A stretch of 41,926 nt of DNA. Origin: Gammaproteobacteria bacterium (GTDB lineage: Bacteria; Pseudomonadota; Gammaproteobacteria; Thiotrichales; Thiotrichaceae). The stretch lies in the NCBI GenBank assembly GCA_018822845.1, contig JAHJJD010000074.1:1-41926 (forward strand), written 5' to 3'. Every line of letters starts with the position of its first letter. Position 1 is the stretch's first letter. Shown piece after piece: positions 26,358-41,926 of the stretch. Both the position numbers and the translations under genes were made by a program. The notes under the pieces are model-generated. The model did no database searches and was not told where the DNA came from. It saw only the letters and a program-made list of their open reading frames with translations.

Positions 26358-26366
26358 TCACTTCCC
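26347..26366. other. Perfect hairpin spanning two convergent stop codons
   Basis: GGGAAGTG (26347-26354) pairs with CACTTCCC (26359-26366). The loop and its neighbouring bases form TGATCA, which holds the aroB stop TGA (26355-26357) and, on the other strand, the stop of the DUF3131 gene (26358-26360). There is no U-run on either side, so it is not a classical intrinsic terminator, but it may block or stabilise both message ends. Confidence 0.6.
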
Positions 26367-27674
26367 CAACTTCATCAGTTTACCACTTTGCTTGTATGCC
26401 AATGTTTCCAGCATGATGCCGTTGGTGTTGGCGGTGATGGCCTTGTTTGGTTCGCCACTGACTTCATACAGGCCGGAATACCAGCCGCGTGCCGGGTCGG
26501 CAAGTGTTGCTGCCTTTTCCACCAGTTTCCGGGTGTAGTCGGTTTCGTACAGTGCGTGCCAGCCAAACGCAGCCTTGGTGCTCAGGGTCTTGAACTGGCT
26601 GGCGTCTTCACCGGTTTCGGTAATCGCATTCCACACCTTGCCATCGGTAAATACCGTGTTGTAGACGAAGTGCGGTGGCTGGTCGATGTTGTCTTCCGAT
26701 ACGGCGGTCAGGATGCCGGTATCAGCAAAACGCTTTTCCTGCGCCTTGTATACGCGCCAGGCCAGTTCCTGCGAGATGTGATCCCAGCCGAATTCGATGC
26801 CATCCAGAATATACGGTTCGCTGACCACGTAGTTATGTGCGTCGTATTGTTGCGGGTCACGGCTATCGGTTCCCACGCTCACACCATCAATATCCACGAA
26901 CTTGAGGAAATCGGTGTAACGCAACGAGTTGGATACATCCAGCCCCATCAGGTTGAAGGACTTGGCAGCATATTCCTCATAACCCAAACGGCCTTCCTGC
27001 AAGTATTGGGTTGCGCCTGCATCGTTTACCGCAGCACCATGCAATACGCCTTCCACCAGCATGGGCGAGGTGTTCCAGCTTGCCAGTACCCTTTTGACAG
27101 CAGCGGTATGCTGCGGGTAATTCCACGCCAGCACGTTGAATGGTACGAGTACCCGCCCGATGTCGATGGCTGACCAGCCGATACCCTTTTCACTGGGCTG
27201 GTTGGTGTAGTCGACCATTTGCAGGGAAATGGTGTTATAGGATTTGTTGGGCAGTTTGCCTTCAAATAGCGGCAGTTTCGCCAGAGTGTCCAGCACCTTG
27301 AATATACGGGCGTCAAATTCGGTCTGGTCGATAATGCCCAGTCGCTGCGCTGAAATTACTGCCATCAGGTAGGATGAGGTATCCCACAGGGTCGATGCGT
27401 TATAATTGTCCACCGAATTAACCAGTCCGGTGGCAGGAATGGTGTTGTTCTGAAAATATTTCCAGGCTGTGTGCGCCCACTCCAGTTCCTGCGTCGTCAG
27501 TGGACGGGTGGGGGCAATCTTTAGGTCTGGGCTGGCTTCAATGATGGCTTCAGGTGTATTTGTATTGCCCATGCTGATGCCCTCCAGCCAGCCGACCAGC
27601 CCGAAGGCTGTCACCAGTCCAGCCAGAAAAATGATGTGGCTGCGTGCGCGAACCAGTCCTTGTTTGAAACTCAT
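26358..27674 (-). CDS. DUF3131 domain protein, membrane-anchored
   Basis: A 438-residue protein with an N-terminal membrane helix (about 12-30) and a large extracytoplasmic domain of the DUF3131 type. It reads AHTAWKYFQNNTIPATGLVN, then NASTLWDTSSYLMAVISAQRLGIID, MVDYTNQPSEKGIGWSAID and YNTVFTDGKVW. The fold expected is an alpha/alpha barrel like that of glycoside-processing enzymes, but no activity is established. It overlaps the GT2 gene by four bases and is the last gene of the minus-strand cluster, so a role in processing or exporting that polysaccharide is likely. A paralogue starts at 40910. Confidence 0.82.
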   Translation of the reverse strand: MSFKQGLVRARSHIIFLAGLVTAFGLVGWLEGISMGNTNTPEAIIEASPDLKIAPTRPLTTQELEWAHTAWKYFQNNTIPATGLVNSVDNYNASTLWDTSSYLMAVISAQRLGIIDQTEFDARIFKVLDTLAKLPLFEGKLPNKSYNTISLQMVDYTNQPSEKGIGWSAIDIGRVLVPFNVLAWNYPQHTAAVKRVLASWNTSPMLVEGVLHGAAVNDAGATQYLQEGRLGYEEYAAKSFNLMGLDVSNSLRYTDFLKFVDIDGVSVGTDSRDPQQYDAHNYVVSEPYILDGIEFGWDHISQELAWRVYKAQEKRFADTGILTAVSEDNIDQPPHFVYNTVFTDGKVWNAITETGEDASQFKTLSTKAAFGWHALYETDYTRKLVEKAATLADPARGWYSGLYEVSGEPNKAITANTNGIMLETLAYKQSGKLMKLGK

Positions 27675-29539
27675 GCAATGACCTCTTTATTGTTATAACT
27701 GGATCCGGGTTGGGATTCAGTAGCGGTTTCCTCTGCCTCTGGCTGCCAAAATGCCGCCATTACAATCCCGCTCAACGCAATCACATTATTCAACCCCCAG
27801 AAAATATTGACCAGTACCCCGCCCAGTGAATAGTCGTTGTTGCCCAGCACGAAATACTGCACCGATGCATACACCAGACCCAGCACCGTCAGCGCCATCA
27901 CCGCGAACTGCGGGAGTACCAGATGGAAGAAGTTACCTTCCTGCCGATCTTTAGGCGTGACCGGGAATTTGATTTTTTCACCTTTCAGCACCGTCCAGAT
28001 CGCTTGTAAATTCACCGGGAAAAATGACAGGTAACTGGCTTTGGAGCGGTAGCCAGCAATTCCCCACGTCCCCACCATAAACGCCAGCTCCATCGCAATC
28101 AGGAATGGCAAAATGTGTTTAAAGAAATCACCCGTATATGCACTGACCGGCGCAATGCCACTGAACAGGTACACCAGTGGTGCAATCAGGAAAACCATGT
28201 TCCAGATACCGCCGAAGTATGACCACGCCGTCGCGCCATACATCAAGCGTTGCGCCCAACTCATGCCGGGGCGGGTCATTGGGTTGTCGTGCAACACAAT
28301 ATCCAGCGTGCCGCCCGCGTATTTGAAGCGTTGCACTGTCCAGCTCAGCAAATCCTGCGGGGAAAGCATTTTCGATTCGACAGCTGGGTGAAGCACCGAT
28401 TTCCAGTGACGGTCTTCATCGGAGTGCAGCACGATTGATGTGTAAATGTCTTCGGAAACGTGGAAACGGTAAGGGGTAAACTCTTCCTCGCCCGCCACCT
28501 GATGGCGCATTTCCTGTACCAGTCCGCTATCCAGTGCAGTATCCCCCATCAGTTTCTGCAACTGCCTGGACTGCTTGCCGACCTGTTTTTCGATGGTGTC
28601 AGCGTAGCATTTGAGGGCAGCTTCCATCACCGCTTCGCGGCGGTGGATCGAGCCTGCACCGCAGCAGAACGAGGCATTCGCCCAGTTGCGGCGGCGCTGG
28701 ATTACGTCGTAAAACATTTTCGGCTCATTCACGAACGGGTCTTCGCCCACGCGCACTTCGCCAATGATGGCTTCCACACCCTTGCCGAGCCAACGACCGG
28801 GGGCTTTCAGGTAACGCCCCAGCGCATCGGGCAAGCGTTTGCCTTCCGGCAAGTCAAAGAACCATTGCGGGGTCTGCACCCACGCCACATCGGGGTCACG
28901 GAAATAGCCCAGCGTGTGTTCGAGGATGGTAGGGAACGGGCGCGTATCGGCATCGCAAATCACAATGAAATCGCCGTGGGTCTGTTCCATCGCATTGCGC
29001 AGGTTGCCCGCCTTGAAACCAATATTGCTGCTGCGGGTGAGGTAACCCACGCCTTCTTCGTTAGCGACTTGCTCCATTTCCGGGCGTTTGCCATCGTCCA
29101 GCACAAAGATTTTCAGCTCAATCGGGTAAGGGTAAGTGACTTTCTTGGCATCGAGGATACTCAAACGCACCAACTCCACCTCTTCGTTGTAGGTGGGGAA
29201 AAACACATCAACCTTGATTGGGCGGTCTTCTGCATGGTCGGGGTGCACCACTTCATTGAAATTGGCGGGCGGGGGCAGTTGCTCGTAATCTTTCACTTTC
29301 CACAAGTTGAACACGAACAAGCCCAAGCCGAAATATGACGCCGTTTCCGCCACCAGTAACGGGATGGAATACCACAGCGCATCGGGGTTGAGTGATGCCG
29401 TCCAGCGCCACCACAAATACCACGCACCCAGCGTCATGGCGATGACGGCGAGGAATTGCCAAATGCCCTCAGTCACCGCTGAATAGGGTAGTGGAGGTTC
29501 GGGCTGACGGTTTTCAAACTTGTCGAAATAGAATCCCAT
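27671..29539 (-). CDS. Cellulose-synthase-like family 2 glycosyltransferase
   Basis: A 622-residue multi-pass inner-membrane processive glycosyltransferase. N-terminal helices occupy about 25-80. The cytoplasmic GT2 domain shows DDG (148-150), the metal-binding DAD (196-198), VQTPQ (221-225) and SED (362-364, the TED position). C-terminal helices run from about 430 to 605. At the acceptor-site position where cellulose synthases have QxxRW, this protein has QRFKYAGG (403-410), so the polymer may not be cellulose. No BcsB, BcsC or PilZ domain is present. It lies 11 bp after the GH2 gene and overlaps the DUF3131 gene (ATGA), so it is an exopolysaccharide polymerase by context. Confidence 0.88.
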   Translation of the reverse strand: MGFYFDKFENRQPEPPLPYSAVTEGIWQFLAVIAMTLGAWYLWWRWTASLNPDALWYSIPLLVAETASYFGLGLFVFNLWKVKDYEQLPPPANFNEVVHPDHAEDRPIKVDVFFPTYNEEVELVRLSILDAKKVTYPYPIELKIFVLDDGKRPEMEQVANEEGVGYLTRSSNIGFKAGNLRNAMEQTHGDFIVICDADTRPFPTILEHTLGYFRDPDVAWVQTPQWFFDLPEGKRLPDALGRYLKAPGRWLGKGVEAIIGEVRVGEDPFVNEPKMFYDVIQRRRNWANASFCCGAGSIHRREAVMEAALKCYADTIEKQVGKQSRQLQKLMGDTALDSGLVQEMRHQVAGEEEFTPYRFHVSEDIYTSIVLHSDEDRHWKSVLHPAVESKMLSPQDLLSWTVQRFKYAGGTLDIVLHDNPMTRPGMSWAQRLMYGATAWSYFGGIWNMVFLIAPLVYLFSGIAPVSAYTGDFFKHILPFLIAMELAFMVGTWGIAGYRSKASYLSFFPVNLQAIWTVLKGEKIKFPVTPKDRQEGNFFHLVLPQFAVMALTVLGLVYASVQYFVLGNNDYSLGGVLVNIFWGLNNVIALSGIVMAAFWQPEAEETATESQPGSSYNNKEVIA

Positions 29540-29550
29540 AACAGTGCGTC

Positions 29551-31746
29551 TTATTGTTGTGATTGGACGGTAAAACGGTATTCATTGTGGCTGATCACCT
29601 TGCCTTGTGTGTCGGTTATTTCCGCCTCAAGGCGATAGTCGCCCGGTTCACTTACGGGGGCGGTGTAGTCGCGTAAATGGCGGTGCATATCGGGCACAAG
29701 GTCAAACTGCCAGCTTTGAGTATCGCGCTTTTGCTTGCCGCGCCATAGCGTGAGCCGATAATGGGCATTCGGGGTACTAGCGAGACTGTCGTTCAACGCC
29801 CACAAACCGATGCTAACGGGTTCGCCTGCGGCATAATCGATTTTGCTCCACGCAAGGCTTGGCAGCACGGGTTGATAGGCGCGTTGCAAGGCGTAATAGC
29901 CCGGCTTGGGCTTGCGCCAGAAATCGACCACGCCCCAGTTCATCGACGGCCAGTCTTCTACCAGCATGAACTGGAACAGCGCACCGACCGGTTGGTATGC
30001 CTGTCGCCGATATGATTCTGCCGCCAGTTGCGTCAGTTGTGCCTGATAGTGCTGGGTGTTGCTGATGAACTGTTCCAGCGTTTTGCCTTGTGGGACTTTG
30101 GCTATTTCCAGGGTTTCCTTGCGCTGGAAGTTGTGGTATTCCCATGCTTTCCAATCGGCTTTGCTGGTGGGCAATTCCGGTTCTGCACCGAGAATGGTTG
30201 CCAGCGTGAAACGGTCGGGCAGGGCTTGTGCGCCGAATTCTGCGATGGTGGATTGCTTGGTGGGTTTGGCATAATCCAGCCAGTGCCCGGAATACCAACC
30301 CAGCCAAGGGTGTTCCTTGGTGGACGAGACTGCGGAAATTGGGCGGGTGTTATCCAGCGTTTTCGCCGCCTTGTAGAGTTTGTCGTCCAGTGGCTTGTTT
30401 TGCTGCGGGTCGTAGTCCTTGTATTTCCACTTCATCCAGTCCGCATCCCACGGCGGTTCGTTGTGCAGCGTCCAGTGGATGATGGAAGGGTGATGCCCGA
30501 ACTGGCGGATCATGTCGCCGACTTGCAATGTCGCTTGCTGGTGGAATTCTGGCGTATCCTGATAGCCCCATTGCAGTGGGAAATCCTGCCACACCAGCAG
30601 ACCCATTTCGTCACACAGGTGGTAGAAGTCAGGGGCGGTAACGTGGGCATGGACGCGCACGGTGTTGATATGCGCGTCCTGCATCAGCTTGATGTCACGG
30701 CGGAAATCTTCCACTTTCATCTCGCTCAACCACTGGTTGGCGATATAGTTCGTGCCTTTGAGCAGGATGCGCTGGTGATTGATTTTCCAGATGCCTTGGG
30801 CGGAACGCTCAACCTTGCGGAAAGCGATGGTGCGTTGGAAGGAATCCAGCACTTTGCCATCTTGCACTGCGCTGACGGTCAGGGTGTAGAGGTGTTGCTC
30901 ACCGTAGCCTTTGGGTTGCCAGAGTCTGGGGTGGCTGATGGGAATATTGGAAGAGGGCGTATGCAATACGCCCCTACGCGGGCATTGTAGGGGCGTATTG
31001 CATACGCCCTCTTCGGCAAATCCAACCGGATCTACTGACCACTGCAATTGCGCACCCGCAGGCAGCTTGCCCAGTATGCCCAGCTCAACCTTGACCTGCC
31101 ATTCTTCCAGTCCCTTGACGGCTTGCGCCTGCACTTGCTGCGGTACAAGTTGCACTGACGTGGATTGCTGCAAACGCACTTCACCCCAAATTCCGCCGGT
31201 ATTCTGTTCCTGCCCGCGCTCCGACCAAGCCCCACCGGGACGAGTGTCATGGTGGGAAAAAATCCCCTTGATCAGCCGCTTGTGCAGCGAGAAATTTTCT
31301 GGTTTCTCCAACGGGCTGTTGACCCGTACCAGCAGGGTGTTTTCCCCCGTTTTCAGGTGCTGGCTTACATCGAAAGAAAATGCCTGGAAATAGCCTTCGT
31401 GTGCGCCGAGTTTTTGTCTGTTTAGCCATGCATCGGCAAAGTAATCCACCCCGCTGAAATGCAGGGTGGAAACGGTTTCTGCGGAGGTATTGGCGTTGAA
31501 TGTCAGGCGATACCAAGCGTAACCGTGATGGTCATGGCCTTGTGTGTACCAATTGCCGGGAACCTGGATGCGTCGCCAACGGGCATTGTCCGCTGGCATA
31601 TCTGCCAAGCCGGAAGGCAGGAATTCCCACATCCCTGCTAGTGAGCCGGTGTTGCTGATGGCAAACGGCTGGGGTGGTGGCAACAAGCTGCACCCCTGCA
31701 ATAGCAGGAACAATGCCACCATGACCACCCACACTAGCCGCCGCAT
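29551..31746 (-). CDS. Glycoside hydrolase family 2 lipoprotein
   Basis: A 731-residue secreted lipoprotein. The signal ends LLQGC, so C19 is lipidated and Ser at +2 predicts the outer membrane. It has the GH2 domains: sugar-binding jelly roll (about 35-190), an immunoglobulin-like domain (about 200-310), and a TIM barrel (about 320-600). The acid/base is E430 (LHNEPPW) and the nucleophile E503 (IAEFGAQAL). A C-terminal beta domain follows (about 640-731). The substrate is unknown; beta-mannosidase, beta-galactosidase or glucuronidase activities are all possible. A 65-bp palindromic insertion encodes residues about 245-266 inside the Ig-like domain. Its start lies 1 bp after the stop of the anti-sigma kinase gene. 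Confidence 0.88.
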   Translation of the reverse strand: MRRLVWVVMVALFLLLQGCSLLPPPQPFAISNTGSLAGMWEFLPSGLADMPADNARWRRIQVPGNWYTQGHDHHGYAWYRLTFNANTSAETVSTLHFSGVDYFADAWLNRQKLGAHEGYFQAFSFDVSQHLKTGENTLLVRVNSPLEKPENFSLHKRLIKGIFSHHDTRPGGAWSERGQEQNTGGIWGEVRLQQSTSVQLVPQQVQAQAVKGLEEWQVKVELGILGKLPAGAQLQWSVDPVGFAEEGVCNTPLQCPRRGVLHTPSSNIPISHPRLWQPKGYGEQHLYTLTVSAVQDGKVLDSFQRTIAFRKVERSAQGIWKINHQRILLKGTNYIANQWLSEMKVEDFRRDIKLMQDAHINTVRVHAHVTAPDFYHLCDEMGLLVWQDFPLQWGYQDTPEFHQQATLQVGDMIRQFGHHPSIIHWTLHNEPPWDADWMKWKYKDYDPQQNKPLDDKLYKAAKTLDNTRPISAVSSTKEHPWLGWYSGHWLDYAKPTKQSTIAEFGAQALPDRFTLATILGAEPELPTSKADWKAWEYHNFQRKETLEIAKVPQGKTLEQFISNTQHYQAQLTQLAAESYRRQAYQPVGALFQFMLVEDWPSMNWGVVDFWRKPKPGYYALQRAYQPVLPSLAWSKIDYAAGEPVSIGLWALNDSLASTPNAHYRLTLWRGKQKRDTQSWQFDLVPDMHRHLRDYTAPVSEPGDYRLEAEITDTQGKVISHNEYRFTVQSQQ
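30950..31014. repeat. 65-bp palindromic element inserted in frame in the GH2 gene
   Basis: Perfect inverted arms of 28 bp (30950-30977 and 30987-31014) surround a 9-base loop (30978-30986). The arm reads AAGAGGGCGTATGCAATACG followed by CCCCTAC. It is read through by the GH2 frame as VCNTPLQCPRRGVLHTP plus flanks, which does not resemble the surrounding domain. No other copy is in this window. Similar GTAGGGGCG...CGCCC palindromes occur as dispersed repeats in other bacteria to my recollection, but I cannot verify that here. Confidence 0.9.
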
Positions 31747-31747
31747 A

Positions 31748-32179
31748 TCAGGCTAATTGTTTGCTGACATGCAGGTGATTGCCCCGCGCATCGCGGATGT
31801 AACGGATAGAATCCGCCAGCGCGTGGATCAGCCCCATTCCCCAGCCGCCTTCCGGCAGGTCTTCCGGGTCAGGCATGTCGCGAACCCCACCATGCAACTC
31901 ATCTGGCATGGCGTGACCGTGGTCAGAAATGATCAAATGCACTTCCTGAGGGCTATATTCGACCCGCACGTGGACGTCATTGCCTTCCTGCAACTGGTAG
32001 GCGTGTTCAATCACGTTGTTGACGGCTTCCACCATCATCAGTTCGAGTTGCCCCAGTTTGTCGTCGGTGAGTTGCAATTCCTGCCCAATGCCGCGCAATG
32101 CGCCAGACAGTACCCGCACTTGCTCCAAACGGCTGTCGATGGAAAGGCGGATGTTGTATTCCTTATAGTTGCCATCCAT
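31748..32179 (-). CDS. RsbW-like anti-sigma factor kinase (HATPase)
   Basis: A 143-residue soluble GHKL ATPase of the RsbW/SpoIIAB type. The N-box is ELMMVEAVNNVIEHAY (N54/N55), the G1 box IISDHGHAMP (D86), and the G2 box GGWGMGLIHAL (about 109-117). Such proteins hold a sigma factor or another target and phosphorylate a STAS antagonist. The ATG at 32179 overlaps the stop of the nucleotidyltransferase gene (TGATG), with AGAGG upstream; a longer frame reaching 32347 only reads antisense over that gene. A STAS partner is two genes upstream in the same operon. No sigma factor gene is in the window, so the final target is unknown. Confidence 0.88.
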   Translation of the reverse strand: MDGNYKEYNIRLSIDSRLEQVRVLSGALRGIGQELQLTDDKLGQLELMMVEAVNNVIEHAYQLQEGNDVHVRVEYSPQEVHLIISDHGHAMPDELHGGVRDMPDPEDLPEGGWGMGLIHALADSIRYIRDARGNHLHVSKQLA

Positions 32180-33369
32180 CACGCTACCTCTTTTTCGCGT
32201 TCCTGCACTTCGCAGAAGCTGAGTATATTGCTGAACAGCAACATATCGTGGATGTCGCTGGGGTTGAGGATGCGGCGGGTATCGTTCACCAGCCAACGCA
32301 CCTGGGTTTCGCCCAGGTTTAACACATTGCCTTCCGGTGAAATGCAATCGCCACCAAAAATCAGTTTGTTATCGAGCGAAGCCAAGCCACCAATGCGGGT
32401 GTAATCACTAATCAGGCATTCGCTGATTTCCGCACCCGACTCAATGACGCAATTCGCGCCAATCATGCATGGGCCGATAATGTGGACCCCAGCTTCGACT
32501 TTGGTGCTGCTACCGATGTAAACCGGGGGCTGGATATTGACATGATCCCAGTTGATGCTGACATTGATGCCTGTCCAAATGCCCGGTTTAACCTGTTTGC
32601 CGGGCATGGTGAAACCCTGGATACCGCCTTGTAACGCGAGGCGGGTAGCTGCCCAAACGTCTGGCACTGAGCCAATATCGACCCACTGGAAATCCATTGG
32701 CAAACCGTAAAAGGCTTCGCCCGCGCCCACCAATGCAGGGAACAGTTGACTGCCAATGTCATATTCCACGCCAGCAGGGATGTACAGGAATATGTCTGGT
32801 TCAAAGATGTAAATGCCAGTGTTGATGGTATTGGAAACGGCTTCTTCCGGCTTGGGTTTTTCCTGGAACTGCACAATGCGCTGGTGTTCGTCGAGTTTGA
32901 CCACGCCGTATTTGTGGACTTCCTCGTGTGGGACCTCCTGCAAAATGACAGTGGCAATGCTGCCTTTTTCCTTGTGCCAGCGCAGAGCCGCACTGATGTC
33001 GAGATCAATCCATGCATCGCCACACAGCACGATGAAGGTTTCGTCAAAAAAGCCGGAAAACTCCTGGATGCGCTTCATGCCGCCCGCCGAGCCGAGTGCT
33101 TTGCCTTCCAGCCAGTCTTCGGTCATGTAACCTTCGTAGGAATAGGCAATGTGGACACCCAACTGGTTGCCGTCACGGAAATAGTTTTCGATCACCGGCG
33201 CGAGGTGGCTGGTATTGACTACAATCTCTTGCACATCATGGGCACGTAACAGTTCCACGATGGCTTCCATCACTGGCTGGCGCAAGATCGGGATCATTGG
33301 TTTTGGTATTTCGTTGGTAATAGGGCGCACCCGCGTCCCTTTGCCAGCAGCCAGAATCATGGCTTTCAT
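32179..33369 (-). CDS. Sugar-1-phosphate nucleotidyltransferase with left-handed beta-helix domain
   Basis: A 396-residue enzyme of the mannose-1-phosphate guanylyltransferase / glucose-1-phosphate thymidylyltransferase superfamily. It has the N-terminal MILAAGKGTRVRPIT signature motif, GSAGGMK (about 93-99), the metal-site GD (117-118), and QEKPKPEE. A C-terminal hexapeptide beta-helix follows (about 280-345; HIIGPCMIGANCVIESGAEI), then an about 50-residue tail. It would make the activated sugar for the GT2 polymerase. Which nucleotide and sugar are used cannot be read from sequence. It sits between the STAS and RsbW-like genes, an unusual position. Confidence 0.87.
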   Translation of the reverse strand: MKAMILAAGKGTRVRPITNEIPKPMIPILRQPVMEAIVELLRAHDVQEIVVNTSHLAPVIENYFRDGNQLGVHIAYSYEGYMTEDWLEGKALGSAGGMKRIQEFSGFFDETFIVLCGDAWIDLDISAALRWHKEKGSIATVILQEVPHEEVHKYGVVKLDEHQRIVQFQEKPKPEEAVSNTINTGIYIFEPDIFLYIPAGVEYDIGSQLFPALVGAGEAFYGLPMDFQWVDIGSVPDVWAATRLALQGGIQGFTMPGKQVKPGIWTGINVSINWDHVNIQPPVYIGSSTKVEAGVHIIGPCMIGANCVIESGAEISECLISDYTRIGGLASLDNKLIFGGDCISPEGNVLNLGETQVRWLVNDTRRILNPSDIHDMLLFSNILSFCEVQEREKEVA

Positions 33370-33404: not shown

Positions 33405-33743
33405 TCAGGCCGCTACGGCTTCCAGTGCGGCATTTACGCTTGGTGTCATGCGGAATACACGTTCCATGCGGGTCAACTTGAACAAGTCGGCGACGATGCC
33501 TGTTGCACCTGAAATAATCAGGTCACCACGGTTACCGACGATTTTTAGCAAGCTGACCAGTGCACCAAGGCTGCTACTGTCCATGAAGGTGACAGCACTG
33601 ATGTCCAGCACGATGCGGGTATTGCCATCATTAAACAGTTGGGCAATGTGGTTCTTGAGTTCAGGGGCGATAACAGCATCCATACGGGCTTCCAGAATGG
33701 TGGCTATAGTGAGGTCGCCTTCGGTACGAGTGGAAAATTGCAT
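33405..33743 (-). CDS. STAS domain anti-sigma factor antagonist
   Basis: A 112-residue single STAS domain (SpoIIAA/RsbV type). The phosphorylation loop TFMDSSSLGAL holds D55 and S56-S58; by alignment to SpoIIAA, S57 is the likely phosphosite. It is first in the minus-strand operon, with AAGGA eight bases before the ATG. The RsbW-like kinase two genes on and the PP2C phosphatase at 36654-37946 are its natural partners. HsbA of Pseudomonas is a comparable protein. Confidence 0.9.
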   Translation of the reverse strand: MQFSTRTEGDLTIATILEARMDAVIAPELKNHIAQLFNDGNTRIVLDISAVTFMDSSSLGALVSLLKIVGNRGDLIISGATGIVADLFKLTRMERVFRMTPSVNAALEAVAA

Positions 33744-33942
33744 TGTTATTATCCTTGTTGTCGTTGGGTTTTTTTGGAACGTATCATTTTAATTAATGAA
33801 TTCATTGTATACCTGTCAGACAATTGGCGGCAATAGCCGGATTAACGCTAATATCTTACCAATAGAACTTTCTTATGAACGGTAGCTTGGGTAGAATGTA
33901 GCGATAAAATTATCACAACAATAACAACTCAGGATGCCTGCT
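33744..33942. promoter_or_regulatory. Divergent promoter region between STAS operon and FIST gene
   Basis: A 199-bp AT-rich region. For the plus strand, TAGAAT (33892-33897) is a candidate -10 with the weak -35 TTTCTT (33869-33874) 17 bp upstream. AGGA (33931-33934) serves the FIST ATG at 33943. For the minus strand, a promoter is expected near 33780-33830, where AATTAATGAATTCATTG forms an AT-rich dyad, but I see no clear boxes. Confidence 0.35.
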
Positions 33943-35091
33943 ATGCTTAGCCTTCAACCCCATGCCCAATTATTTGTCGAAACCAGCGGAAGCTGTGATG
34001 GTCTGTTTAGCTTGCTTGATCGTGCTGTAAGCAGTGGCGCACAAAGCCTGCTGGTGCTGGCTGCGGATGCTAATGGCTTTACCCCGGAGCAACTGGATGC
34101 CCGCTTACAAGCACAGCCGATCCCGGTGTTTGGTGGCATTTTCCCGGAGATCGTTGCCGATGGGCAAATCCTGAAACAGGGAAGTTTGGTGTGTGCTTTG
34201 CCAGTAGCGGCTCACGTTCACCACATCGAAAACTTGTCTGACCCTGATGCAGATTATTTCCCTGCTGCCGAACTATTAGCGGTTAAAATCCGCGCTGGAT
34301 CAACCTTGATTACCTTGGTGGATGGGCTGAGCAAACGTATTGCGGCTTTGCTGGAAAATCTCTATGAAGTCTTCGGTAGCCGTTACCGTTACCTTGGCGG
34401 TGGGGCGGGTTCGCTGAGTTTCGAGCAGAAACCTTGCTTGATCAGTAATCGGGGGCTAGTGATGGATTGCGCCCAGATTACGGCATTGCCTGCGTCGGTT
34501 AGCCTTGGCATTGATCATGGCTGGCACAAGTTTGCTGGGCCGTTTTTTGTTACTGGGGCATACGATAACACCATTACCACCATCGACTATAAGCCAGCTT
34601 TCGAGGTTTACCGGGCAGTGGTGGAAGCGGATAGTGGTCAGCAGTTTGGTGAGGACAATTTTTTTGATTTGGCAAAAGCTTACCCGTTTGGTTTGGACCG
34701 TTTGTCTGGCGATGTGGTGGTGCGTGACCCGTTATTCCGTGACGGCAATAAATTGGTTTGTGTGGGTGAAGTGCCAGCCAATCACATTATCTATATCCTC
34801 AAAGGTGAAGCGGACAGCTTGTTGCAAGCTTCGCAGCGTTGTGCGCAAAGTGCCCAGACTGACGCACCGTTAATAGTTGCCTTATTGTTTGATTGCATTA
34901 GCCGCACGCTGTTTCTGCAAGAACGCTTCATTGAGGAAGTGGACAATATTCACAGCACTTTACCATCGGGTGTGCCATTGGCTGGAGGCTTGTCGTTAGG
35001 GGAAATCGCAGATGCAGGAAATACCTGTCTGGAATTTTTCAATAAAACGGCAGTATTAGGTGTGCTTACCTATCGGGAGCAAGATGAATGA
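33943..35091 (+). CDS. FIST domain sensory protein
   Basis: A 382-residue soluble protein of the FIST family (FIST_N about 15-210, FIST_C about 220-365), a proposed small-ligand sensor found near signalling proteins. Recognisable parts are YRYLGGGAGSLSFEQKPCL, VSLGIDHGWHKFAGPF, and the FIST_C stretch ADSLLQASQRCAQSAQ followed by VALLFDCISRTLFL. The ATG 33943 is preferred since AGGA lies eight bases upstream, while ATG 33934 touches the ribosome site. It overlaps the following hybrid kinase by four bases, so the two probably act as sensor and kinase. Confidence 0.85.
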   Translation: MLSLQPHAQLFVETSGSCDGLFSLLDRAVSSGAQSLLVLAADANGFTPEQLDARLQAQPIPVFGGIFPEIVADGQILKQGSLVCALPVAAHVHHIENLSDPDADYFPAAELLAVKIRAGSTLITLVDGLSKRIAALLENLYEVFGSRYRYLGGGAGSLSFEQKPCLISNRGLVMDCAQITALPASVSLGIDHGWHKFAGPFFVTGAYDNTITTIDYKPAFEVYRAVVEADSGQQFGEDNFFDLAKAYPFGLDRLSGDVVVRDPLFRDGNKLVCVGEVPANHIIYILKGEADSLLQASQRCAQSAQTDAPLIVALLFDCISRTLFLQERFIEEVDNIHSTLPSGVPLAGGLSLGEIADAGNTCLEFFNKTAVLGVLTYREQDE

Positions 35092-36755
35092 ACTTAACGT
35101 TAGAGCTGGTCTCTGTCCAGTATGCTTTGGCTTTGTTGGTTGGGCAGGATTTGGATTTGCGTACCATGTTGCGCAAGTTTCTGCCGCCAGCGTTGAAGCT
35201 GCTCAACTGCCGTAGTGGTTATATTTGGTTGCACAATGGCAAGCTACCTGCCGGAATAGCAACCGCTGCACCCAACCCATGTTACAGTTATCCGGCACTG
35301 CACGGTGCACTAGGGCAGGATCAGCCCTTGCTGGCAGCGGCAATCCAGCGCATTGCCACACAAGGGTGGCAGGTCAGTAAACCGGGGGAAATTTTCAACC
35401 TTGTGGGGGTGTCCTACCATTTCATGCCAGTGGGGGATAATGCCTTGTTGGTGCTGGTGCGTGACCCTCCATTACCAGAGGCTTATCTGCTGGCGTTAGG
35501 GTTGGTGTTGAAACGGCTGGAAACGGCTTGCCTGGCCTGCCAGCACCACGCCCACCTGGAAGAAGCCCGCGCCGAAGCTTTGAAGGCCAAAGCGATGGCG
35601 GAGCAAGCCAGTAAAGCGAAAAGTGAATTTCTGGCCATGATTAGCCACGAAATTCGCACGCCGATGAATGGCATTATTGGCCTTACCGACTTGATGTTGT
35701 ACAGCGAGGTTTCTGCATCACAGCGTGAATACCTTGACATGATTAAATCATCGTCGAATGCTTTGCTCGACATCATTAATGAAATTCTTGATTTTTCACG
35801 CATTGAAGCGGGTACGTTAGCACTTAGTCCTGCACCGTTTACGCTGCGTACTTTGTTGCAAGAAACCCTTATCCCTTTGCAAGTGCGGGCGCAGCATAAG
35901 CAGCTCCAGTTTCATTGGGAGGTGGCGTCAGCCATCCCTGATATGCTGGTAGGTGATGCCGGGCGTTTGCGTCAGGTGATGATTAATCTGGTTGGTAATG
36001 CCATTAAATTCACCGAGTGTGGTGATGTGATGGTAAGCATTAGTCTGCAAAGCGGTGCACCTGCGGGTCAGGTGCATTTGCTGTTTGCGGTGCGTGATAC
36101 GGGTATTGGCATCCCTGCTGAAAAGCAGCTCAGTATTTTTCAGCCGTTTCAGCAGGCGGATAGTTCCATTACCCGACGCTACGGCGGAACGGGTTTGGGC
36201 TTGACCATCTCTTCGCAACTGGTAGGTTTAATGGGTGGGCAATTGCAGGTGGAAAGTGATGTGGGTCATGGCAGTATTTTCCATTTCAGTATTCCATTAT
36301 CAATCGCTGGCCATGCCAGTCCTAAAGTTGAGGTGCCACCTGCCGTATTAGAGCGCACCCAGCATAGCTTGCGCGTGTTGTTGGCCGAAGACAACACAGT
36401 TAACCGAATGTTGGCGGTGCGTTTGTTGACCAGGGCGGGGCATCAGGTGATGGAGGCAGAGAATGGGCGGCAAGCCGTCGCTTTATGGCAGAGTAATATG
36501 CCGGATGTGATCCTGATGGATGTGCAAATGCCAGAAATGGATGGGTTGGAAGCCACCCGCTTGATCCGCGATGCCGAACAGCGCAATCAGCTTACCCCGA
36601 TTCCCATCATCGCTTTGACTGCGAATGCCATGGAAAGCGACAAAGAACGCTGCCTAGCGGTGGGAATGGACGATTTTCTCAGCAAGCCTTTCCAGATTCA
36701 AACCTTGTTGGATGTTTTGCAGCGCGTTTGCCCGGTATCGATGAGGTCGGTGTAA
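35088..36755 (+). CDS. Hybrid sensor histidine kinase paired with FIST protein
   Basis: A 555-residue cytoplasmic hybrid kinase. Residues 1-160 are an N-terminal domain that could be GAF-like but is not clearly recognised. A coiled linker leads to HisKA with H187 ([11 protein letters not shown]), then HATPase_c with N ([10 protein letters not shown]), DTGIGIP and GGTGLGL boxes. The C-terminal receiver domain (about 425-550) has its phosphoacceptor D478 (LMDVQMPEMDG). No membrane segment is visible. With no Hpt domain of its own, it needs a separate Hpt such as that at 38054-38413. Its 3' end overlaps the convergent phosphatase gene by 102 bp. Confidence 0.9.
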   Translation: MNLTLELVSVQYALALLVGQDLDLRTMLRKFLPPALKLLNCRSGYIWLHNGKLPAGIATAAPNPCYSYPALHGALGQDQPLLAAAIQRIATQGWQVSKPGEIFNLVGVSYHFMPVGDNALLVLVRDPPLPEAYLLALGLVLKRLETACLACQHHAHLEEARAEALKAKAMAEQASKAKSEFLAMISHEIRTPMNGIIGLTDLMLYSEVSASQREYLDMIKSSSNALLDIINEILDFSRIEAGTLALSPAPFTLRTLLQETLIPLQVRAQHKQLQFHWEVASAIPDMLVGDAGRLRQVMINLVGNAIKFTECGDVMVSISLQSGAPAGQVHLLFAVRDTGIGIPAEKQLSIFQPFQQADSSITRRYGGTGLGLTISSQLVGLMGGQLQVESDVGHGSIFHFSIPLSIAGHASPKVEVPPAVLERTQHSLRVLLAEDNTVNRMLAVRLLTRAGHQVMEAENGRQAVALWQSNMPDVILMDVQMPEMDGLEATRLIRDAEQRNQLTPIPIIALTANAMESDKERCLAVGMDDFLSKPFQIQTLLDVLQRVCPVSMRSV

Positions 36756-37946
36756 CTCGATAATTAATAGGGAAATATCATCTGGGCGTAAGGCAGTTGC
36801 TTGGTCCAGGCCAAATTTGCTGCGTAATCGTTCGATAATCTGATCTGCTGGTTGCGTATCAAGAGCCTGCAAACAATTCATTAGGGCAGCTTCAGTGAGA
36901 ACATGATTGTCGGGTGAGGGTAATTCCAGCAAGCCGTCGGAATACAAGACAAAGCGGCTACCACTGGGGAAGGGGATGCTAATCGTGTCGTATTCCACCT
37001 CTGGCAATAGTCCAATCGGGAAACCCGTGCAGTCGATTTGCACCAGGCAGTCATTGCCGGGGGTATAAAGAAACGGTTGTGGATGACCTGCTTGTACGAA
37101 ATGCAGGTATTCTTGTTTGGTATCTATGACGCCCATGATCATGGTTAGGTAATGGTCGCCACTATCCAGCCGCGTATGCAGATGATGGTTCAGGCGTGCA
37201 GCGAGCCGTGAGGGGATGGTGGAAATTTGGGTGTCGCCAAGCTCATCCAGACAATGTAGCTCACTGGTGGCGCTCAGCAGGGTTTGTAAGCACATCGACA
37301 ATAGCGCAGACGCAATGCCATGCCCGGAGACATCAATTGAATAAAAAAAGAACAAATCATCGTTGAGCGGAAAATAGTTAAAGGTGTCGCCACCAATGTA
37401 TTGCGCAGGTTGGAAAAACCAATCGAGTTTGATGCGTCCAAACTGTTTCTGGCTGGGCAACACGCCGGACTGTAAGATGGCCGCACGCTCCAGATCATTT
37501 TGGATCAAGCGTTGAGTAGCTGAAAGTGACTGGTTGGCACTTTCCAGGCTGCGGTTTCTGTCTTCTAGCCGGTGTTCCAGGTCCAGCACCCGCTGCGCGG
37601 CGCGTAACCGTACTTCCAACTCTTCCCGCACAATCGGTTTGGTGGCGAAATCGTCTGCACCCGCGTCCATGCCTTGAATCAGGTTTTGCTTGCCTGACAT
37701 TCCAGTCAGCAAAATGATGTAAACGTAATGCGGTAGGTCGGTAGCACGGATGGTGCGACACAGGGTTGGGCCATCCATGATGGGCATAACCCAGTCGCTT
37801 ATAACCACCTGGAAATTGTGCTGTTGGATGAGTTCCCAGGCGGCTTGCCCGTTGTCTGCCAGCATCACCTGATGCCCCATCAGGGTCAGGATACGGCGCA
37901 AGATCAACTGCATGTCTCTGGCATCGTCTACCACGAGGATATTCAT
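36654..37946 (-). CDS. Response regulator with PP2C/SpoIIE serine phosphatase output
   Basis: A 430-residue protein with an N-terminal receiver (D7, D8, phosphoacceptor D51 in ISDWVMPIMDG, K in ATKPI), a coiled linker (about 120-165), and a SpoIIE/PP2C phosphatase domain (about 180-390). It has YIGGDTFNYF, DVSGHGIASALLS, VQAGHPQPFL, YSDGLLEL and DDISLLII. The GGDxxD motif reads GGDTFN, which I recall from HsbR/RssB-like regulators. The likely substrate is the phosphorylated STAS protein at 33405-33743. The last about 35 residues extend past the usual phosphatase end, over the 3' end of the convergent kinase gene. Divergent from the Hpt gene. Confidence 0.9.
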   Translation of the reverse strand: MNILVVDDARDMQLILRRILTLMGHQVMLADNGQAAWELIQQHNFQVVISDWVMPIMDGPTLCRTIRATDLPHYVYIILLTGMSGKQNLIQGMDAGADDFATKPIVREELEVRLRAAQRVLDLEHRLEDRNRSLESANQSLSATQRLIQNDLERAAILQSGVLPSQKQFGRIKLDWFFQPAQYIGGDTFNYFPLNDDLFFFYSIDVSGHGIASALLSMCLQTLLSATSELHCLDELGDTQISTIPSRLAARLNHHLHTRLDSGDHYLTMIMGVIDTKQEYLHFVQAGHPQPFLYTPGNDCLVQIDCTGFPIGLLPEVEYDTISIPFPSGSRFVLYSDGLLELPSPDNHVLTEAALMNCLQALDTQPADQIIERLRSKFGLDQATALRPDDISLLIIELHRPHRYRANALQNIQQGLNLERLAEKIVHSHR

Positions 37947-38053: not shown

Positions 38054-38413
38054 ATGATGACAAACACTGCTCATAACATTGATGAAGAAACTTTCATCAT
38101 GCTTCAGGATATCATGGCGGATGAGTTCGCCGAGTTAATTGACTTTTTCCGCAGGGATGTCGTTGCTGGCCTCGACAGCCTGCAACATTGTGTGGCGCAA
38201 GAAGATACAGAACAAGTTGGTGCTATCTGCCACAAACTCAAATCCAGTAGCAAGCTGATTGGCGCATTCAAAATGGCTGAACTGGCCCGGTTACTGGAAG
38301 AATACAAGGACGATCACGATCAGGTGCGAGCCAGTGAGCATTGGCAGCAACTGCAAGCTGAATACGCCCAGGTCTCCCTATGGCTGGATAGCCATCAACC
38401 CGTATCAGCCTGA
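38054..38413 (+). CDS. Stand-alone Hpt phosphotransfer protein
   Basis: A 119-residue four-helix phosphotransfer protein. The phospho-histidine is H60 in ICHKLKSSSKLIGA, the classical Hpt motif. It would carry phosphate from the receiver domains of one or both hybrid kinases (D478 of the FIST-linked one, D379 of the H-NOX-linked one) to the receiver of the divergent phosphatase regulator. It is first of the H-NOX operon and lies 42 bp before the H-NOX start. The HptB protein of Pseudomonas is the closest functional analogue I can name. Confidence 0.88.
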   Translation: MMTNTAHNIDEETFIMLQDIMADEFAELIDFFRRDVVAGLDSLQHCVAQEDTEQVGAICHKLKSSSKLIGAFKMAELARLLEEYKDDHDQVRASEHWQQLQAEYAQVSLWLDSHQPVSA

Positions 38414-38455
38414 AACCATCTATAACAACAGTTGGGATACCCACAGGGGGGGGTT

Positions 38456-39007
38456 ATGAAAGGTTTGGTTTTCACCGAGTTTCTGGAAATGGTTGAAAGC
38501 AGGTTTTCGCCCGCGATGGTCGATGACATCATTGATGACGCCGACTTGCCTTCCGACGGGGCTTACACCTCCGTCGGCACTTACCCGCATTCCGAAATGT
38601 TAGCTTTAGTAGAAAGCCTTTCCAAAAATCTCAATGTAGCCATCCCTGAACTGATCAGATTGTTTGGGCATCATTTGTTTCACAGTTACGTTATGCATCA
38701 TTCAACACTTTTTGAGGGCAAGCAGGACGTTTTCGATTTCTTGGAACAGTTGGAACATTTACACAGGATAGAGGTACATAAACTTTACCCTGATGCTGTG
38801 TTTCCCACTTTTCGGGCTATCCGGACAGAGAAATACAAGCTTCTGCTTACTTATCAATCACATCGCCCTTTTGCCCAGCTGGCAAAAGGGCTGATTGAGG
38901 GATGCTTAGAATATTACCAGGTCGAGGCTAAGATTGAGACCATTGACCACTCAGCAGGCAAAGGGACACATGTTGATTTTCATATTACGCGGACAGATAT
39001 GGAATGA
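38456..39007 (+). CDS. H-NOX heme-based nitric oxide sensor
   Basis: A 183-residue cytoplasmic heme protein (HNOB family). Key features: N-terminus [14 protein letters not shown], proximal heme ligand H103 in [14 protein letters not shown], and the heme-propionate motif Y133-x-S135-x-R137 (YQSHR). The axial histidine number equals that of the Shewanella protein. Binding of NO (not O2) is expected for stand-alone H-NOX of facultative bacteria, an inference. ATG 38456 follows an A-G7 ribosome site. It overlaps the kinase gene by four bases, the H-NOX/HnoK arrangement in which H-NOX regulates the kinase. Confidence 0.92.
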
Positions 39008-40374
39008 ATGATGAAGTAATTCGTCTGCAACGCCGACTGGAGCGGGAACGTAAAGCCCGCAAACAGGCCGAACAGTTGCTGGAAAGCAAAGGTATGGCGT
39101 TGTATCAGGCCAATCAGGAGTTGCGGGCGTTAGCAGAATCGCAGGAACACATCATCGCGGAAAGCACCCGTGAATTGGTGGAAGCGCGTGACCAGGCACT
39201 GGCTGCCAGCCGCTCCAAAAGTGCGTTTTTGGCGGCGATGAGCCACGAAATACGCACCCCCATGAACGGTATCATCGGCATGACGACCCTGCTGCAACAC
39301 ACCGAGCTGTTACCGGAACAGGCGCACCAAGTCGCCATTATCCTGCAATCGGCGCAAGCCCTGCTGGGCATTATCAATGACATCCTCGATATTTCACGTC
39401 TGGAAGCGGACAAGCTGGAACTAGTGGAGGAGTCATTCCAGCTTTGTGACATCCTGCCCAATATCATCGAAACCCTGCGCACGATTGCTGCGCAAAAGCA
39501 ATTGACGCTGGAAACAGAGATTCCGACAGGGGGGGGCATCCAGTTGCATGGTGATTCCCTGCGCTTGCGGCAAGTGCTGCTCAATCTGATCGGTAACGCC
39601 ATCAAGTTCACCGAACAGGGCAAGGTCTGTGTGCGTGTCAGCTACGGTCAGACTGGAATGTTACGTTTTGAAGTGCAGGATAGCGGGCCGGGCATTTCCC
39701 CGGACAAGCAAGCCAAACTGTTCCGGGTCTTTAGCCAGATTAGCCGTTACGACCAGCATAATAACAGCGGCACAGGGCTGGGGTTGGCGATTAGCCGCAA
39801 GTTGGTCAACCTGATGGGGGGCACAATCGGGGTAAACAGTACTGTGGGGCAAGGTAGTACCTTCTGGTTTGAAATTCCTGCCGTCAAGTCCAGTGCTATT
39901 GTCGCAGAGCCGAAGCTGGCGTTGGAAGAGTCCAACCTGAAACTGCGGCAACCCTTCTCTGTAATAACAGGCGCACCGGGTGGGCAGCAGCGCATTCTGC
40001 TGGTAGAAGACCACAAGGTGAACCAGATGGTGGCAAAGGGGATGCTGAGCAAACTGGGTTACCACGTCACATTGGCAGAAGATGGCTTTCAAGCACTCGA
40101 CTGCTTGCGTAACGAAGATTTTGCTTTGGTGTTGATGGATATCCAGATGCCCGGCATTAGCGGTATCGAAACCACCCGGCGGGCACGGGCGGAGTTCCCG
40201 CAACGCCATTTGCCGATCATTGCCTTGACTGCCAATGCCATGAAAGGCGATGAACAGGAGTATCTCGCGGCAGGCATGAATGCCTGCCTGACCAAACCGA
40301 TCCAGATGGACATTCTCGCAACTTTACTACAGGAATGGCTGTCTATCAGCAGTTCGGCAGCCATACCAGAATAA
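39004..40374 (+). CDS. H-NOX-associated hybrid histidine kinase
   Basis: A 456-residue soluble hybrid kinase without an input domain; only a coiled coil (about 5-65) precedes the HisKA domain with H81 ([11 protein letters not shown]). HATPase_c has N ([10 protein letters not shown]), DSGPGIS and GTGLGLA boxes. A receiver (about 330-450) has D379 in [11 protein letters not shown]. Absence of a sensor domain and the four-base overlap with H-NOX suggest that H-NOX binds it and controls its autophosphorylation, as in HnoK systems. Output probably goes to the Hpt protein two genes upstream. Confidence 0.92.
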
Positions 40375-40395
40375 TAACAAGAGGGCACGCCACCG

Positions 40396-40917
40396 ATGAA
40401 CCTGTTCCAACACATCCTGCTCAGTATGTTGCTGGCGCTGATCGTCTATCTGGTCTTGCAGAACCAGCAACTGCGCTCCGAACTGGCGGCTATCCACGCC
40501 CTGCAACAGGATGCGGGCACGGTCATGGAGCAAACCCTTACGCCATTGACGGAAAAAGTCGCAGCTATCCATACCATCACCAGCAAACTCGGCACGGAAG
40601 CGGATGATGCTGCCAACAAAAAACTGACCGGCCTGCAAAAACGTCTGGGTCTTTATAAAATCCTCAGTACAGTCAATCAGGCTGACCGCTTGCGGGCTGA
40701 AGGCAAGGGTGCGGAAGCAGCCGAAAAACTGGGCAGCATCAAAAAAGCCATCTGGGAGGCGGGCGAAACATTTACCGACAAAAAAGCCCGTTTGCAAGGT
40801 CTGATGGGGCCGATTGACAAACTGGTGGGTGCGTGGAAAAACGGTGACGCCAGCACCGCCGCCGATGCAGTGCGCAAAGAACTCGACGCTGTTCTGGGGG
40901 AACTCGGCAATGACTGA
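40396..40917 (+). CDS. Inner-membrane coiled-coil protein of unknown function
   Basis: A 173-residue protein that I do not recognise. One N-terminal membrane helix (about 5-22, HILLSMLLALIVYLVLQ) is followed by a helical, Ala/Lys/Glu-rich region to the C-terminus, with coiled-coil character at about 22-60 and 95-170. The domain is probably periplasmic if the N-terminus is cytoplasmic. It lies 21 bp after the hybrid kinase, and its stop overlaps the next DUF3131 start by eight bases. It may anchor or assist the DUF3131 protein; that is inference. Confidence 0.7.
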   Translation: MNLFQHILLSMLLALIVYLVLQNQQLRSELAAIHALQQDAGTVMEQTLTPLTEKVAAIHTITSKLGTEADDAANKKLTGLQKRLGLYKILSTVNQADRLRAEGKGAEAAEKLGSIKKAIWEAGETFTDKKARLQGLMGPIDKLVGAWKNGDASTAADAVRKELDAVLGELGND

Positions 40918-41926
40918 ACACAACCATAACAATACACTATGGTCACGCCGCCCTGTCCGGGTCGGTTTGGCATGGCTGGTTGGCCTGTTGCTGGCAAGTG
41001 GCATCATTTATGCCATCAGCAGCCAGCCACTAACCACTACAACTTCTGCTGCCAGCAACAACGGTAGTTTGCTGGGTTTGTTGCGCGCCAGCCAGCCGGA
41101 TTCACGCCCTGACACCTTCTGTAAACTGACAGAAGGGCCAGACAATAGTTGCCTCGGTAACCCGCAAGCCTTGTGCGGCAAAGATCTGGAAATGGCGAAA
41201 ATTGCCTGGAAATATTTTGAGAACAACTACAACCCGGAAACGGGCCTGTATAACGCCGCTGATAAATACCCGTCCACCACGATGTGGGATACCGGCTCGG
41301 CACTAGCAGCAACCCTCGCCGCACACGATTTCGGCCTGATTGATGACAAGACCTTCGACGATCGTATCCAGGCGATGTTCAAAACCTTCACCAACATGGA
41401 GTTGTTCAACAAGGAGGCCCCTAATAAGGTGTACCACGCTACCACAGGGGCGATGGTGGATTACCGCAACCAGCCTGCCCCGGAAGGTATTGGCGTTTCT
41501 GCCCTGGATCTGGCGCGCATGATTTCGTGGTTGAACACACTGGGTTGTATGCACCCCAAATATGCCTACCCCGCAAAAAAGGCGATCGAACGCTGGGATC
41601 TGCAACGTTTGATCAAGGAGGGCCAAATGTTTGGCCTCTACCGTGATCCCGCTTCCAAGAAGTTGGTGGTGGCGCAGGAAGGGCGCTTGGGTTATGAGCA
41701 ATACGCAGGCAAGATTTTCCGCGATCTTGGTTACGACCAGCATATTGCCGCCACTTACAATAACGAATTCCGCGAAACCATCAATATCTACGACGTACCG
41801 GTTGCCTATGACCGCCGTGATCCGCGTGATCTGGGGGCGTACAACTACGTCGTGACCGAATCGTATGCGCTGGATGCCATGGAAAACGGTCTTGATGCTG
41901 AAAACAAGCCATTGCTGGAAAACATT
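40910..41926 (+). CDS. DUF3131 domain protein, second copy (cut by window end)
   Basis: At least 339 residues; no stop before the window edge. An N-terminal membrane helix (about 18-37) and a short linker with two Cys lead into the DUF3131 domain: AKIAWKYFENNYNPETGLYN, TMWDTGSALAATLAAHDFGLID, AMVDYRNQPAPEGIGVSALDLA and EGRLGYEQYAGKIF. It aligns along its length with the protein at 26358-27674, so they are paralogues. It starts inside the 3' end of the preceding gene, so it belongs to the H-NOX/kinase operon. That links the sensory genes to extracellular polysaccharide functions. Confidence 0.85.
   Translation, partial: MTEHNHNNTLWSRRPVRVGLAWLVGLLLASGIIYAISSQPLTTTTSAASNNGSLLGLLRASQPDSRPDTFCKLTEGPDNSCLGNPQALCGKDLEMAKIAWKYFENNYNPETGLYNAADKYPSTTMWDTGSALAATLAAHDFGLIDDKTFDDRIQAMFKTFTNMELFNKEAPNKVYHATTGAMVDYRNQPAPEGIGVSALDLARMISWLNTLGCMHPKYAYPAKKAIERWDLQRLIKEGQMFGLYRDPASKKLVVAQEGRLGYEQYAGKIFRDLGYDQHIAATYNNEFRETINIYDVPVAYDRRDPRDLGAYNYVVTESYALDAMENGLDAENKPLLENI

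Follow-up and report, generated by a model that had tools for sequence, protein, structure and literature searches.

In a 41,926-nucleotide stretch of DNA from a gammaproteobacterium of the Thiotrichaceae (assembly GCA_018822845.1, contig JAHJJD010000074.1; hereafter, the window), a response regulator with a PP2C phosphatase domain (REC-PP2C), a STAS antagonist and an RsbW-like serine kinase form a predicted partner switch that is a built-in part of an operon encoding a GT2 polysaccharide synthase and a DUF3131 protein. The same locus holds one Hpt phosphotransfer protein and two sensor–kinase pairs, an H-NOX protein with a hybrid kinase (HK2) and a FIST protein with a second hybrid kinase (HK1). 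We propose, with moderate confidence, that this exopolysaccharide operon is run by its own partner switch, which is fed by a kinase–Hpt relay whose inputs are exchangeable. The host is a filamentous sulfur bacterium with a 4.0-Mb genome, and its relatives are Thiothrix.

The partner switch accompanies the synthase operon

An alignment scan of 84,980 species with the GT2 sequence returned 351 relatives; the best 80 loci by GT2 similarity were analyzed by searching their neighborhoods with profiles built from Thiotrichaceae proteins. PP2C, STAS and RsbW were all present in 67 of these 80 loci and in 50 of the 51 that had at least 9 kb of sequence on both sides (40 of 41 when Thiotrichaceae already seen were set aside). 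Twelve of the 13 incomplete loci were stretches shorter than 17 kb, and the other, L098, had no detectable RsbW. Carriers of all three genes included Leucothrix, Cocleimonas, Ferrimonas, Photobacterium, Aliivibrio, Methylobacillus, Noviherbaspirillum, Ramlibacter and Burkholderia as well as Rhodobacterales, Desulfoluna and records assigned to Ignavibacteria/Kapaibacteria. The order PP2C-STAS-RsbW on one strand was seen in 57 of the 67 complete loci, with three more showing the same order and an extra copy; the PP2C gene followed the STAS/RsbW pair in six, and strands were mixed in one.

By sequence, the three proteins correspond to the parts of an RsbU-V-W module: a PP2C phosphatase, a STAS protein with a phospho-serine site, and a GHKL serine kinase with catalytic Glu and Asn. 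The catalytic residues of the RsbW-like protein, E53 and N57, were conserved in 73 of 73 loci (these numbers, and the pair N56/N57, count from two residues before the ATG; counted from the ATG the pair is N54/N55), and profile comparison matched the window protein to the RsbW of PDB entry 6m36 with an E value of 7e-21. The STAS Asp-Ser was likewise found in 73 of 73 loci, with Ser at the phospho-site in 71 and Thr in two, while the three Asp positions of PP2C were kept in 70 of 70 and the receiver Asp (D51) in 58 of 60. Pairwise GT2 distances among the 67 complete loci correlated with those of STAS (rho 0.59), RsbW (0.57) and PP2C (0.32), against permutation maxima of at most 0.13, and each of the ten pairings among the five genes compared exceeded its own permutation maximum. 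These correlations are as expected for genes inherited together, a part of which shared species history alone would yield.

Distribution in Thiotrichaceae and Rhodobacteraceae

In a set of 63 Thiotrichaceae genomes, H-NOX was found in 33, this GT2 in 30 and REC-PP2C in 31. H-NOX and GT2 occurred together in 28 genomes, H-NOX alone in five (G032, G033, G039, G050 and G057), GT2 alone in two (G016 and G025) and neither in 28 (Fisher P = 1.5e-10, relatedness ignored); removal of the window's own genus left counts of 14, 3, 2 and 28 (P = 2e-7, again ignoring relatedness). The same four of 12 genomes in genus g2 carried both genes, and most other genera were too small to tell. Within the window's genus (16 genomes, the window included), the genes for STAS, RsbW, REC-PP2C, Hpt, H-NOX and HK2 lay at one locus in the same order in 15. 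FIST and HK1 stood between STAS and REC-PP2C in nine of these 15 full-switch genomes, and also in G040 of another genus. In G015 and G030, H-NOX-HK2 and GT2 were on different contigs. The first-pass annotation, made from the letters of the window, had named a lack of co-occurrence in related genomes as one of the results that would refute its proposed relay; genus synteny, family counts and the wider GT2 loci all show the genes occurring together.

A second family was examined for both switch and sensor. Even sampling of a larger group gave 248 genomes of the Celeribacter halophilus family (Rhodobacteraceae). Of these, eight carried a close GT2 (at least 72% identical to the Celeribacter one) and 11 a distant GT2 (43–56%). 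All eight close-GT2 loci held PP2C, STAS and RsbW; among the 11 distant-GT2 control loci, two of them on shortened stretches, one held all three, one PP2C only, one STAS only and eight none. In five of the eight close loci, an H-NOX with its proximal His and a hybrid kinase lay no more than 6 kb from the GT2. As for the other three, G221 had the H-NOX–kinase pair on another short contig, G081 had no H-NOX, and G309 had none nearby. H-NOX thus adjoins the same type of operon in two classes, with differing gene order. Some H-NOX was present in 181 of the 248 genomes, and although a single such neighborhood could be chance, five close neighbors are hard to ascribe to it even where H-NOX is this common; the five may descend from one event.

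Several variant loci were noted. In L048 (G057, 4951-12210), the relay genes are kept, but the interval from aroB to RsbW lacks GT2, GH2 and the first DUF3131 gene, and the second DUF3131 gene was not found at this locus. L054 (G050, 7800-16100) has H-NOX-HK2 and FIST-HK1 about 3 kb apart with no switch core; judged by eye, a glnE-like gene lies between them and transposase-like open reading frames (ORFs) lie nearby. HK1 of L046 (G055, ~3500-4860) is split by ~1.4 kb of other ORFs, followed by a large ORF with kinase matches, and its FIST gene is intact. In L126 (Desulfoluna, 18160-19964), a gene of the ODP family with a metallo-beta-lactamase fold, possibly a di-iron gas sensor, stands directly before PP2C in an operon of this type.

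The H-NOX of the window lacks the proximal histidine

The residues given in the first-pass annotation were exact (H81 and D379 of HK2, H187 and D478 of HK1, H60 of Hpt, D51 of the receiver, S57 of STAS and N54/N55 of RsbW), but its claim that all active-site residues of the signaling proteins are present fails for the H-NOX, where the position of the proximal His is occupied by Arg104. We take the haem-holding proximal histidine of H-NOX proteins to be His103 in Shewanella oneidensis SO2144. PDB entry 2kil bears the title of an H103G mutant of that protein. In the alignment to SO2144 (PDB 2kii), Arg104 of the window protein faces His103, and the window's own His, at position 103, falls one residue before; Arg104 is placed the same way in alignments to the H-NOX proteins of Shewanella woodyi (6ocv) and Kordia algicida (6bde). 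The proximal His was kept in 30 of the 33 Thiotrichaceae copies, the exceptions being the window (Arg), G039 (Glu) and G050 (Arg). In published groupings it is absolutely conserved in H-NOX groups 1–4 and present in <10% of a fifth group, according to the accessible part of PMC8738867.

Sequence change in the window H-NOX was also unusual. Divergence was judged by amino-acid change only, synonymous sites being saturated relative to the window. Mean identity to congeners was 58% for the window and 70–78% for the others (15 genus genomes, G050 left out); with G050 added, it was 57% for the window, 43% for G050 and 68–76% for the other 14. The window protein was altered at 15 of 86 sites invariant in its 14 congeners, compared with at most 4 of 75 for any of those (G050 left out); with G050 included, the window stood at 5 of 55 and G050 itself at 20 of 70, while no other congener exceeded 3 of 53. 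The two outliers of the genus are therefore its two His-less copies. Nine other window genes compared in this way showed ordinary change (0–4%).

Because the predicted fold and an open frame are kept, the window H-NOX is not an obvious pseudogene. Its HNOB Pfam match scored 127.5 bits, its predicted fold is that of an H-NOX (Foldseek template-modeling (TM) score ~0.8 to the best PDB H-NOX structures), and Y133, S135 and R137 of the H-NOX motif YxSxR are intact. These features, along with an amino-acid divergence far below the saturated synonymous divergence, would suit a protein that still binds haem through the adjacent His103 and senses nitric oxide (NO) as its relatives do. We regard this as unlikely: the ligand position itself is Arg104 where nearly all family copies have His, sites invariant among congeners have changed in this protein, and the other His-less copies, in G039 and G050, belong to genomes without GT2 and REC-PP2C. 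Loss of the proximal His makes NO sensing by the window H-NOX doubtful on sequence grounds, while it is likely in relatives, and the H-NOX branch of this genome has probably lost or changed that function. Redox sensing through a Zn-Cys site, described for other H-NOX proteins in the accessible part of PMC12329717, was rejected for the window protein, whose sequence has a single Cys. Three members of the cytochrome-cd1 family (PF02239) were matched in the genome, and one of them is probably an NO-producing nitrite reductase.

Proposed mechanism and alternatives

From gene content, gene order, conservation, active-site residues and co-occurrence, we infer a path of phosphotransfer, the sign of the response and a direct action on the synthase. 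After autophosphorylation, each hybrid kinase would send phosphate through its own REC domain to the single Hpt (H60), which would hand it to D51 of REC-PP2C. The phosphatase of the latter would then strip from S57 of the STAS protein the phosphate that the RsbW-like kinase adds, and unphosphorylated STAS would bind the RsbW-like protein and free its client, most likely the synthase machinery of the same operon, so that polymer would be made. Inputs would be exchangeable, with H-NOX and HK2 serving across the family and FIST and HK1 serving some of its members. If Vibrio fischeri and Pseudomonas aeruginosa are a guide, an NO-bound sensor would inhibit its kinase and stop synthesis; in this genome any NO response would run mainly through the FIST branch. 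The core of the first-pass annotation, a phosphorelay and partner switch tied to polysaccharide genes, draws support from co-occurrence and conserved neighborhoods, with phosphotransfer predicted. Its two-input design held in part: both pairs do stand at the window locus, but the FIST–kinase pair is an optional add-on, occurring in only some of the full-switch genomes of the genus, and the NO input through the window H-NOX is put in doubt by the loss of its proximal His.

Several observations weigh against the proposal. H-NOX was a neighbor in only 14 of the 80 GT2 loci (13 Thiotrichaceae and Celeribacter). Hpt was detected in 14 of the 80 and, outside Thiotrichaceae, only in L080, L114 and L115; the relay step may therefore differ elsewhere. 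Two genomes with the GT2 (G016 and G025) are without H-NOX, and in G057 the relay and switch genes stand without any GT2, GH2 or DUF3131 gene, so its switch may serve another client, or the loss of the operon may be recent. The family-built profiles may also have missed divergent STAS and RsbW genes in the distant-GT2 control loci of Rhodobacteraceae.

G057 suggests that other clients can exist, and bears on an alternative in which the RsbW-like protein would act as an anti-sigma factor (of RpoS, for instance), with the polymer operon as only one among several targets. CrsR and HsbR bind RpoS by an RsbW-like domain, as the accessible part of PMC6482189 states. In addition, the best NCBIfam match of REC-PP2C is the Pseudomonas RssB model, at 155.7 bits against a cut-off of 700. 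RpoS is, to our knowledge, not expected in alphaproteobacteria, Desulfoluna or Ignavibacteria/Kapaibacteria, yet across phyla, these groups included, all but one of the well-covered loci join the switch to the GT2 operon. No sigma domain was found in 20 unlabelled neighboring ORFs of six core loci, only those ORFs, and no other loci, having been scanned. We consider an anti-sigma role unlikely. The first-pass annotation had suggested that the RsbW-like protein may act directly on a biosynthetic protein, and this idea gains support because the switch accompanies the GT2 operon in groups where RpoS is not expected. It saw no sigma factor or diguanylate cyclase in the window, and Pfam likewise picked up no sigma factor in the genes of the window locus that were scanned.

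It is quite improbable that the genes are only loosely related neighbors, such that both kinase pairs signal elsewhere and the switch answers to something else. Both pairs, H-NOX/HK2 and FIST/HK1, are found in G050 although the core is absent, and in G015, G030 and G039 no core lies near H-NOX/HK2, but the family-wide co-occurrence, the association in a second class and the placement of Hpt in the same gene run as H-NOX-HK2, divergent from REC-PP2C, all speak against this reading.

More broadly, and as a tentative possibility that we hold well short of the proposal above, these loci may represent a widespread, hitherto undescribed class of cellulose-synthase-like operons, present in several phyla, that are switched post-translationally by their own RsbU/V/W-type module, with RsbW acting on the synthase complex instead of a sigma factor and without cyclic-di-GMP. 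An H-NOX and kinase would have been recruited at least twice (in Thiotrichaceae and in Rhodobacteraceae), and the H-NOX of this Thiothrix-group genome would later have turned haem-free or shifted its ligand.

Polymer genes and product

The GT2 protein is related to the BcsA catalytic subunit of the bcs cellulose system, and accessory hydrolases occur in both. The window differs in having DUF3131 and a partner switch beside the synthase, a GT2 without a Pfam match to PilZ, and a score to the CelA model TIGR03030 of 229.6 bits against a cut-off of 699. A bcs cellulose operon was thus rejected as the identity of this one, the GT2 falling far below cellulose equivalog cut-offs and having no PilZ. 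Control by cyclic-di-GMP, as in the H-NOX pathway of Shewanella and for HsbD of P. aeruginosa, is very improbable, for although this messenger is a usual output of H-NOX pathways (accessible part of PMC8738867) and the genome has three GGDEF domains, that complement is small, the GT2 has no PilZ match, and Pfam found neither GGDEF nor EAL in 20 window proteins.

The AlphaFold model of the first DUF3131 protein (mean pLDDT, a per-residue confidence score, 90.4) has an N-terminal helix at residues 3–32. Its top Foldseek matches were structural-genomics ‘putative glucoamylases’, followed by beta-1,2-glucanases and the cyclization domain of cyclic beta-1,2-glucan synthase (TM score ~0.6, root-mean-square deviation 5–9 Å), with BcsZ more weakly alike. 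Scanning of ten unlabelled ORFs from five loci identified one GH9 (in Photobacterium, between GH2 and GT2) and two acyltransferases. Our best guess is that the product is a cellulose-like, processed glucan. Several Thiothrix genomes carry, downstream of the locus, a third DUF3131 gene that is ~45% identical to the first (L034, 16926-18284).

Organization of the locus

From position 26358 to the end of the window, the ORFs form four gene runs (Table 1). Run 1 (minus strand) comprises STAS, nucleotidyltransferase, RsbW-like, GH2, GT2 and DUF3131 genes with ends that overlap or almost abut, the GT2 gene overlapping the DUF3131 start by 4 bp. Run 2 (plus strand) consists of FIST and HK1, run 3 (minus strand) of REC-PP2C alone, and run 4 (plus strand) of Hpt, H-NOX and HK2, followed by the gene of a 173-aa protein and by another DUF3131 gene, which the window end cuts off; HK2 and H-NOX overlap by 4 bp. 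Each gene named in the first-pass annotation was present, with Pfam matches above cut-off, and the locus holds three genes beyond that list: the nucleotidyltransferase inside the operon, the 173-aa protein and the contig-cut second DUF3131 gene.

Table 1 Features of the window from position 26358 to its end
Feature	Positions	Strand	Basis
DUF3131 protein a, predicted membrane-anchored (alpha/alpha)6-type glycan-processing enzyme	26358..27674	-	Pfam PF11329; AlphaFold; Foldseek
GT2 synthase, BcsA-like, no PilZ match	27671..29539	-	Pfam GT2; PDB cellulose synthases; CelA TIGR03030, 229.6 bits
GH2-family glycoside hydrolase, lipoprotein-like start	29551..31746	-	Pfam; start read off the sequence
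RsbW-like serine kinase / anti-sigma-type protein, ATG at 32179	31748..32179	-	Pfam HATPase_c_2
Sugar-phosphate nucleotidyltransferase	32179..33369	-	Pfam NTP_transferase; stop overlaps RsbW ATG
STAS antagonist, phospho-site S57	33405..33743	-	Pfam STAS
FIST protein, NosP-like position	33934..35091	+	Pfam FIST and FIST_C
HK1 hybrid kinase, co-cistronic with FIST	35088..36755	+	HisKA, HATPase, REC; H187, D478
REC-PP2C (SpoIIE-type) phosphatase response regulator	36654..37946	-	Pfam; D51 present
Hpt phosphotransfer protein, H60	38054..38413	+	Pfam Hpt
H-NOX, Arg104 in place of proximal His, His103 adjacent	38456..39007	+	Pfam HNOB; alignments; predicted fold
HK2 hybrid kinase, no recognized input domain, H-NOX partner	39004..40374	+	Pfam; H81, D379
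173-aa protein, N-terminal hydrophobic segment, no family	40396..40917	+	seen in 18 other family loci
Second DUF3131 gene (b), cut by contig end at 41926	40904..41926	+	Pfam

HK1 and REC-PP2C share ~100 bp at their 3′ ends (36654-36755), the last ~30 aa of REC-PP2C being antisense to HK1; the proteins of relatives are mostly ~400 aa long. The 173-aa protein had no matches in Pfam or NCBIfam; of the 16 genomes of the genus, 14 have it together with HK2 and the second DUF3131 gene. The FIST gene (33934-35091) is co-cistronic with that of its hybrid kinase (35088-36755), as in NosP/NahK. A search bearing on NosP orthology in three other genomes (G064-G066) came back empty, a result that shows nothing by itself, and we do not call the FIST protein a proven NosP.

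Relation to known systems

Parts of this design have precedents elsewhere. The hnoX-hahK genes of V. fischeri lie outside its syp locus, and the HmpU-HmpV-HmpW locus of Nostoc punctiforme has a different synthase set. We know of no polysaccharide operon at the locus of the NosP-NahK-HptB-HsbR-HsbA system of P. aeruginosa. The comparisons that follow draw on the accessible parts of the papers cited.

In V. fischeri, NO and HnoX inhibit HahK, which signals through SypF/LuxU to SypG and SypE; the target of SypE is the STAS protein SypA, through which it affects SYP polysaccharide (PMC12369376). The window resembles this system in its H-NOX and hybrid kinase, Hpt relay, predicted action of REC-PP2C on STAS and polysaccharide output (PMC12369376, PMC3610818). 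It differs in that SypE fuses a serine-kinase domain to REC-PP2C (PMC3610818), whereas the kinase is a separate gene in the window, and in that syp is an 18-gene locus (PMC4517449) with the transcriptional regulator SypG, whereas the window has a BcsA-like synthase. In P. aeruginosa, the FIST-family protein NosP inhibits NahK, which feeds HptB (PMC11784011). The chain from NosP to HsbA shares with the window a FIST gene co-cistronic with a hybrid kinase, an Hpt, a REC-PP2C and a STAS protein (PMC11784011, PMC5085249, PMC6482189), but HsbR fuses the RsbW-type domain that is separate in the window, and the outputs are HsbD, FlgM/FliA and RpoS. CrsR-CrsA of S. oneidensis is likewise a partner switch of REC-PP2C-RsbW and STAS, although a fused protein with RpoS as its client (PMC6482189). 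The HmpU-HmpV-HmpW locus, which serves motility and polysaccharide, encodes a phosphatase, a STAS protein and a kinase of RsbW type; a gas sensor is not mentioned for it in the accessible part of PMC8256260.

The joining of two inputs to one polysaccharide operon, put forward in the first-pass annotation as apparently new, is therefore less new than claimed, with close precedents in V. fischeri and P. aeruginosa. Distinctive here is the presence of all parts in one locus, with two sensor pairs, a free-standing RsbW, a PilZ-less BcsA-like synthase and a switch fixed in the operon across phyla. Among the papers listed by literature searches, those on DUF3131 included and subscription journals mostly outside their reach, none deals with this operon, judged by title and the start of the abstract.

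Implications

The clients of the polysaccharide-linked partner switches SypA and HmpV are described as unknown in the accessible part of PMC8256260. Because switch and synthase genes stay paired across phyla, over very large evolutionary distances, the old question of what RsbW/STAS binds if not a sigma factor becomes testable with few proteins of a single operon. Thiothrix and Rhodobacteraceae from the environment offer settings in which to test NO control of filament and biofilm polymer, and the branch whose H-NOX has naturally lost its haem ligand supplies a built-in contrast between sensing and non-sensing proteins.

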